Made by a program: the position numbers and the translations under genes
Shown: positions 31,316 through 48,150 of the stretch, in pieces
Layout: every line of letters starts with the position of its first letter
Numbering within the stretch: position 1 is the stretch's first letter
Assembly: GCA_018266955.1 (NCBI GenBank)
Contig: JAFDZI010000003.1
Location: forward strand, 1 to 64,000
DNA: 64,000 nucleotides
Direction: 5' to 3'
DNA from: Bacteroidota bacterium
Lineage (GTDB): Bacteria; Bacteroidota; Bacteroidia; Flavobacteriales; Weeksellaceae
The notes under the pieces: model-generated
The model's database searches: none
Seen by the model: the letters and a program-made list of their open reading frames with translations, nothing else
What the model was told of the DNA's origin: nothing

Positions 31316-31332
31316 TCATTTAGTACTTTCTT

Positions 31333-31434
31333 GCGTGAAGGATTGCAGTGGAAATCCTTGGGTGAGGCACGAGCCCAAGATTGCAACGGAAAGCCTGGTG
31401 CCTAATATGGGAAAAGCCTAGGCAAGGCACACGC
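31333..31434 (+). repeat. structured intergenic repeat, copy 1
   Basis: An element of about 102 bases bounded by GCGTG (31333-31337) and CACGC (31430-31434). Inside are AAGGATT/AATCCTT (31338-31344 with 31353-31359) and an alternative stem CTTGGGT/GCCCAAG (31357-31363 with 31373-31379) that encloses the loop GAGGCACGA. A second part has GTGCC/GGCAC arms. The two stems share three bases, so they cannot both be complete. The partner is at 47960-48065. It lies 20 bases before the next gene. No coding potential was seen. Confidence 0.8.
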
Positions 31435-31453
31435 CATAAAAAATTATAAAAAA

Positions 31454-47755: not shown

Positions 47756-47932
47756 CTCCGTAGGAGCGACATCATATAAAAAACATTTTTTTTTAATCTC
47801 CAAAAAGCTCCGTAGGAGCGACCTATTAATAGAAACATAATTTTTACAAGTTCATAAAACAGCTCCGTAGGAGCGACCTATTAATAGAAACATAATTTTC
47901 ACGAACGCAAAAAAAACTCCATAGGAGCGACA
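47756..47932 (+). repeat. REP-like array of four palindromic units
   Basis: Four copies of a CTCCGTAGGAG-type hairpin plus GAC, starting near 47756, 47808, 47863 and 47917 (period about 52-55). The two middle copies share about 37 bases, including CTATTAATAGAAACATAA. One unit has CTCCATAGGAG. A REP-type role is inferred. Confidence 0.8.
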
Positions 47933-47959
47933 TCATAATAACGCTCCCAATGTAGTTTT

Positions 47960-48065
47960 GCGTGAGGGATTGCAGTGGAAATCCTTTTTTCTGAGGCACG
48001 AAGAAAAAAGATTGCAACGAAAAGCCCGACCCGAGCTAAGGGAAAAGCCATGGCGAGGGACACGC
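47960..48065 (+). repeat. structured intergenic repeat, copy 2
   Basis: Outer arms GCGTG (47960-47964) and CACGC (48061-48065). Inside are AGGGATT/AATCCTT (with one wobble) and a 9-base stem CTTTTTTCT/AGAAAAAAG (47984-47992 with 48002-48010) around the same loop, GAGGCACGA, as copy 1. It lies 85 bases before the S46 peptidase gene. Confidence 0.8.
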
Positions 48066-48150
48066 CCAAATAAGCATTCCTAGAACTGTATTAACTGTGT
48101 TTTTATTATCCCATTGAAAATGCTTATTTTTAGCCAAAATTTTAAAATTC

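Follow-up and report, generated by a model that had tools for sequence, protein, structure and literature searches.

Flavo-1 motifs in a Weeksellaceae genome as possible small mobile or recombining repeats

The Flavo-1 RNA motif (Rfam RF01705) was published by Weinberg et al. (2010; PMC2864571) as a structure motif of unknown function, and it has remained an orphan 'RNA' since 2010, with the Rfam type 'Gene; sRNA'. Hits to the motif in F. psychrophilum lie sense or antisense and many are outside transcribed regions, although some hits fall at 5' transcript regions (PMC9723704). Several kinds of small repeat resemble Flavo-1 in part. REP and REPIN sequences, which are associated with RAYT (Y1) transposases, have in common with it that they are short, folding, intergenic repeats present in tens of copies, without target duplication and with a bias towards gene 3' ends, but Flavo-1 differs in its three-part fold with GNA/GGA loops and in not flanking the Y1 genes examined. 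MITEs and RU/ERIC-type small mobile sequences share with Flavo-1 a length of ~100 bases, terminal inverted repeats, an intergenic location and the capacity to fold; Flavo-1 differs from these in its internal covarying core, in its exchangeable tip and in that no target-site duplication was found. Within the Y1 transposases, the IS200-like class has been reported to occur without repeats, and genes of Bacteroidetes subclass 2.6 have 'atypical' structures on their flanks, with copies elsewhere (PMC6006769).

An Rfam 15 search of the window, which is the whole 64,000-nucleotide stretch analysed here, identifies two stretches as Flavo-1. Copy 1 matches RF01705 at 31328-31404 (44.8 bits, E 2e-6) and copy 2 at 47950-48035 (60.4 bits, E 1e-10). 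Both pass the gathering cutoff of 42 bits and span positions 1-76 of the 76-position model, and the consensus core pairs are kept in the minimum-energy fold of copy 2 as well as across 189 cores collected for comparison. The initial annotation had proposed a real structured intergenic element at these positions, which the Rfam matches show to be more than chance, but it missed the identity with a published motif. Its unit of ~105 bases nevertheless describes subtype A, the form of both copies, better than the smaller Rfam model does. RF01705 ends before the outer stem, P1, is closed; beyond the model, the subtype A unit includes P1, a further hairpin (P3) and CCAAA as a tail.

Both units lie on the forward strand. 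Copy 1 occupies 31331-31438 (TT-GCGTG ... CACGC-CATAA), with ends placed from 108 subtype A copies, and copy 2 occupies 47958-48069 (TT-GCGTG ... CACGC-CCAA). The GCGTG/CACGC ends described previously for both copies are the two arms of P1 and are present in the sequence at 31333-31337 and 31430-31434 in copy 1 and at 47960-47964 and 48061-48065 in copy 2; pairing at positions 4-5 of these arms is seen in most of the 108 copies and, for copy 2, pairing of the arms in the RNA fold. Comparison with the 189 cores places the 5' half in copy 1 at 31339-31356 (AGG-ATT-GCA-GT-GGA-AATC) and its partner, the 3' half, at 31380-31396 (ATT-GCA-AC-GGA-AAGCCT). The corresponding halves in copy 2, which the RNA fold also pairs, are at 47966-47983 (GGG-ATT-GCA-GT-GGA-AATC) and 48011-48027 (ATT-GCA-AC-GAA-AAGCCC). 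Enclosed by the core is a tip hairpin at 31357-31379 in copy 1 and 47984-48010 in copy 2. As had been observed, the arms of the tip differ and yet pair, being CTTGGGT/GCCCAAG in copy 1 and CTTTTTTCT/AGAAAAAAG in copy 2 (where the RNA fold agrees), and the loop, GAGGCACGA, is identical in the two. From sequence and RNA fold, P3 is a GTGCC...GGCAC hairpin at 31398-31430 in copy 1 and a hairpin with tandem G-A mismatches (CCC-GA-GC ... GGC-GA-GGG) at 48030-48059 in copy 2. The neighbours of copy 1 are a Porph_ging-type gene and a small, uncharacterised ORF. Copy 2 is flanked by genes for a P-type ATPase and an S46 peptidase, and close upstream of it (47756-47927) are four CTCCGTAGGAG palindromes, where 0.19 would be expected.

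The general plan of the element was drawn from the 189 distinct cores. The 5' side consists of TT, the P1 arm GCGTKA, the P2 arm NNG, ATT-GNA-RY-GGA-AATC, a bulged C and the tip hairpin, and the 3' side of ATT-GNA-RY-GNA-AAG, CNN, the short hairpin P3, TMACGC and CCAAA, which gives a unit of roughly 95-115 bases. The frame is thus P1 together with a core in which two symmetric GNA/GGA internal loops surround two covarying pairs. The tip, in contrast to the frame, is free in sequence and length (14-125 bases by our own measure), usually starting with CTTTT and ending with AAAAG. Some tips hold another repeat, CCCTTCGACTGCGCTCAGGGTGACA or a close form of it (loci L248, L259 and L319), and so the tip accepts foreign palindromes. 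Subtype A has sharp ends, TT-GCG ... CGC-CCAAA, and no conserved flanks were found beyond them in the 108 copies. Two further forms are subtype B, in which TAGCCC...GGG...AGCTCCTAAA replaces P1, and subtype C (GCAGCCCGACTTGAGTGGA...).

Selection on a folded single strand, which had been suggested from the two window copies, is supported by the many further copies that keep their pairs. Pairs X1 and X2, which the search pattern left wholly free, are Watson-Crick in 373 of 378 cells (about 99%), and all four Watson-Crick types occur at X2. The two central RY/RY pairs show G-U 20 times and A-C not once, even though the pattern admitted both equally, which argues that it is one strand, the one with the purine GNA/GGA loops, that is folded and constrained. 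Positions 4-5 of P1 are paired in >94% of the 108 subtype A elements (as T-A, G-C or A-T). A coupled change, GGAAATCC with ATTGNAA as opposed to GGCATCC with ATNAG, corresponds to one pair gained or lost on both sides jointly. Folded as RNA by minimum energy, copy 2 adopts the consensus structure. A second, mutually exclusive fold that had been proposed on the basis of a local GGATT/AATCC stem did not hold up. This stem is present in the two window copies, but it needs G at X2 (the second G of GGATT), where the 189 cores have G 123, C 43, A 12 and T 11 times, and since X2 varies jointly with the distant base after AGC, following Watson-Crick rules in 187 of 189 cores rather than tracking the constant local C, the alternative stem is not conserved.

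A search with the Flavo-1 model gave 43 matches at E<1e-3 in the genome to which the window belongs (G000; 2.45 Mb in 59 contigs), 34 of them over the cutoff, or ~40 copies in all; a 131-base query covering copy 1 gave 23 matches in the same genome. Flavo-1 is present in most tested genomes of the family, with a match at E<=1e-10 in 107 of 148 genomes and 23 of 33 genera and per-genome counts from 1 to at least about 29, and it also occurs across Bacteroidota. At least 117 stretches in named genomes match the exact pattern, and the matches listed include Flavobacterium, Polaribacter, Tamlana, Pedobacter, Chitinophagaceae, Arcicella, a Spirochaetales MAG and others, with the qualification that records assigned to unrelated phyla could be misbinned. 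On viral contigs, 48 stretches fit a stricter pattern, while matches to a looser one are mostly chance. No cargo beyond 142 bases was found between the halves of 103 paired elements. Subtype A is dominant in G000 and subtype B in its sister species, G001.

Comparison of G000 with 2.28 Mb of G001, assembled from fetched stretches, reveals that many sites differ in occupancy. Colinear flanks without Flavo-1 were found in G001 for 21 of the 43 G000 sites, and at 17 of these the deficit is >=96 bp, although exact empty-site junctions are mostly unreadable at the 75-80% identity of the two genomes. Both window copies are among these 17; G001 also lacks the gene upstream of copy 1 (deficit 1079) and the palindromes next to copy 2 (deficit 280), and a clear example of absence is site C10:9868. 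Four sites (C13:50359, C38:13304, C4:4978 and C16:39619) are common to G000 and the listed G001 copies. In genus g9, the element at site L205 is present in G010, G126, G118, G067 and G114 and absent in close relatives such as G038. At a second site in this genus, L201, 11 of 13 aligned species have Flavo-1, and in these 11 the frame TAGCCCCGATAGTARCGG ... ATAGYGGATAGCGGGA is constant, whereas three hairpins with no relation to one another occur as the tip; the tip of G126 differs from that of G010 despite 93% identity over the region. Given that tips are swapped at L201 within a constant frame, arms that differ yet pair must at least partly reflect replacement of whole hairpins. The tip stem had been described initially as fully covarying, of which the pairing stands, but independent compensation does not, as hairpin cassettes are at least partly replaced wholesale at fixed sites. 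Because of tip exchange the two window copies alone say limited things about compensation, and the evidence for compensation is carried by the frame pairs, not by the tip stem.

Flavo-1 copies are intergenic. In ORF-based counts, 26 contexts are convergent and 9 divergent, and the 3' end of the element faces a gene 3' end in 55 of 80 cases (p about 0.001 by our own arithmetic). Flavo-1 does not serve as a leader for the genes next to it, in that a leader would be placed and oriented alike before genes of a single class, and what was found was mixed orientation and enrichment at gene 3' ends; nor do the at least 117 named loci have a common neighbouring gene family, the largest clusters of neighbours not being mobile-element genes. 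The choice between a mobile palindrome, an RNA and a regulatory leader had been left open, and on the evidence a mobile or recombining repeat is more likely than a leader. All six 5S genes detected in G112 (C1) have a sense copy 105-275 bp downstream, and these make up half of the 12 copies among the matches listed for that genome, with the qualification that rRNA operons are themselves repeats and the six cases are not independent events. Both 5S ends seen in G001 (C10 and C5) are likewise followed by a sense copy, located beyond a terminator. Copies at contig edges in further genera (e.g., G116, G141, G119 and G115) suggest the same position after 5S. The element itself was rejected as an intrinsic terminator, as its end sequences have no T-run after the fold on either strand.

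On balance, Flavo-1 is probably a non-autonomous small repeat, ~95-115 bases long, whose copies arise in and disappear from intergenic positions. Evidence for a repeat that moves or recombines comes from the identity of the family, the copy number, the absences between G000 and G001 and at L205 and the shift in subtype, together with the tip swap at L201, the constraint on pairs, the sharp ends, the lack of a promoter signal and the mixed orientation. Some factor would recognise the folded strand, as either single-stranded DNA or RNA; copies that fold would propagate, and recombination between copies through the conserved frame would swap tips. Counting against a mobile repeat are that no mover and no target-site duplication were found and that gain and loss are inseparable in most comparisons. 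In addition, the four sites shared by G000 and G001 and the one kept over much of a genus could reflect a selected function. A more specific version, which we offer tentatively and rate as possible rather than probable, is that Flavo-1 represents a new kind of modular mobile element, in which an enzyme recognises a fixed folded frame as a single strand and the hairpin cassette is exchangeable, and that it has repeatedly come to lie behind transcription units, among them all rRNA operons of one genome. The gain and loss, the tip exchange and the rRNA-operon position are new here, and no description of turnover, tip exchange or rRNA-operon placement was found in the searchable literature. If Flavo-1 is mobile, covariation in such motifs is not proof of an RNA gene, the motif ought to be re-annotated and it becomes possible to find the enzyme that acts on it. 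Sites that differ only in the tip are a natural record of short-repeat recombination.

Alternatively, Flavo-1 could act as an RNA, either as a small RNA gene or as a selected structured part of transcripts. The strand-specific fold with G-U tolerated and A-C absent, the better folding, as RNA, of the top than of the bottom strand in 172 of 189 cores and the coincidence of hits with F. psychrophilum 5' transcript regions are in line with this, but tolerance of G-U fits RNA and single-stranded DNA alike. An RNA role is made unlikely by the hits in both orientations and outside transcribed regions in that species, by ~40 copies per genome with rapid change in presence and absence, and by the lack of a promoter at a fixed distance among the motifs examined upstream of 108 elements (other promoter types being possible), where TAnnTTTG occurs 9 times versus 6.4 in shuffles and no motif is conserved. 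G-U is also scarce for an RNA family, and this scarcity together with the absent transcription signals leans towards DNA. A fixed-function chromosomal site, bound by a nucleoid, processing or termination factor and preferred behind transcription units including rRNA operons, would account for the copies after 5S genes in G112 and G001, the excess of convergent contexts and gene 3' ends, and terminator-like flanks (15/338 versus 11/1014). Most places differ between the sister species, however, the rRNA operons are not independent, and tolerance of 3' ends suits a mobile repeat too, all of which leaves such a site with a low probability.

Among the candidate movers, subclass 2.6 Y1 transposases were the best lead. 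A Y1 (HuH) transposase, perhaps from this Bacteroidetes subclass with its atypical flanking structures, could have Flavo-1 as its REP-type repeat and move it as single-stranded DNA, in agreement with the lack of target duplication and with the co-occurrence of Y1 genes and Flavo-1 over 148 genomes (Fisher p 6e-7, uncorrected for phylogeny). One G001 copy is ~250 bp from a REP-type transposase gene, but the sequences immediately on either side of that gene are other palindromes (GGGCTCGCC...GGCGAGCCC; L138 6900-7800), which are possibly the transposase's own atypical REP. Five genomes with 17-29 Flavo-1 copies have no Y1 match, no copy adjoins a REP transposase among the matches listed in 18 genomes with REP-transposase matches, four of these 18 lack Flavo-1 altogether, and there is no replication-strand bias (18/37). 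The feet of the Flavo-1 hairpin are TT-GCGTKA and CCAAA or TAGCCC, and not the GTAG/GGAG (or CGTC) tag of REP/RAYT. Movement by a Y1 enzyme is quite improbable, and a RAYT was rejected as the general rule for the mover. The Y1 transposases of G000 were also rejected; they are IS200-like, neither has Flavo-1 beside it, and the Y1 gene that was read with its flanks (L039 1200-1950) sits among CTCCGTAGGAG repeats, the palindrome that is found upstream of copy 2. It is very unlikely that Flavo-1 is a MITE of a DDE transposase. Although it is short and dispersed and has MITE-type terminal inverted repeats (GCGTKA/TMACGC), no target-site duplication was detected in 108 elements, with no offset or length standing out, the neighbours of at least 117 named copies include neither an autonomous transposon nor a regularly adjacent transposase family, and a MITE has no need of the conserved internal structure.

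An HNH endonuclease group is found near Flavo-1, with only 5 members among the matches listed for the at least 117 loci. In several genomes the element is beside HNH endonuclease or restriction-modification genes (L271, L293 and L305; L073; L190 6800-9500), and these neighbourhoods are possibly a hotspot for such genes.
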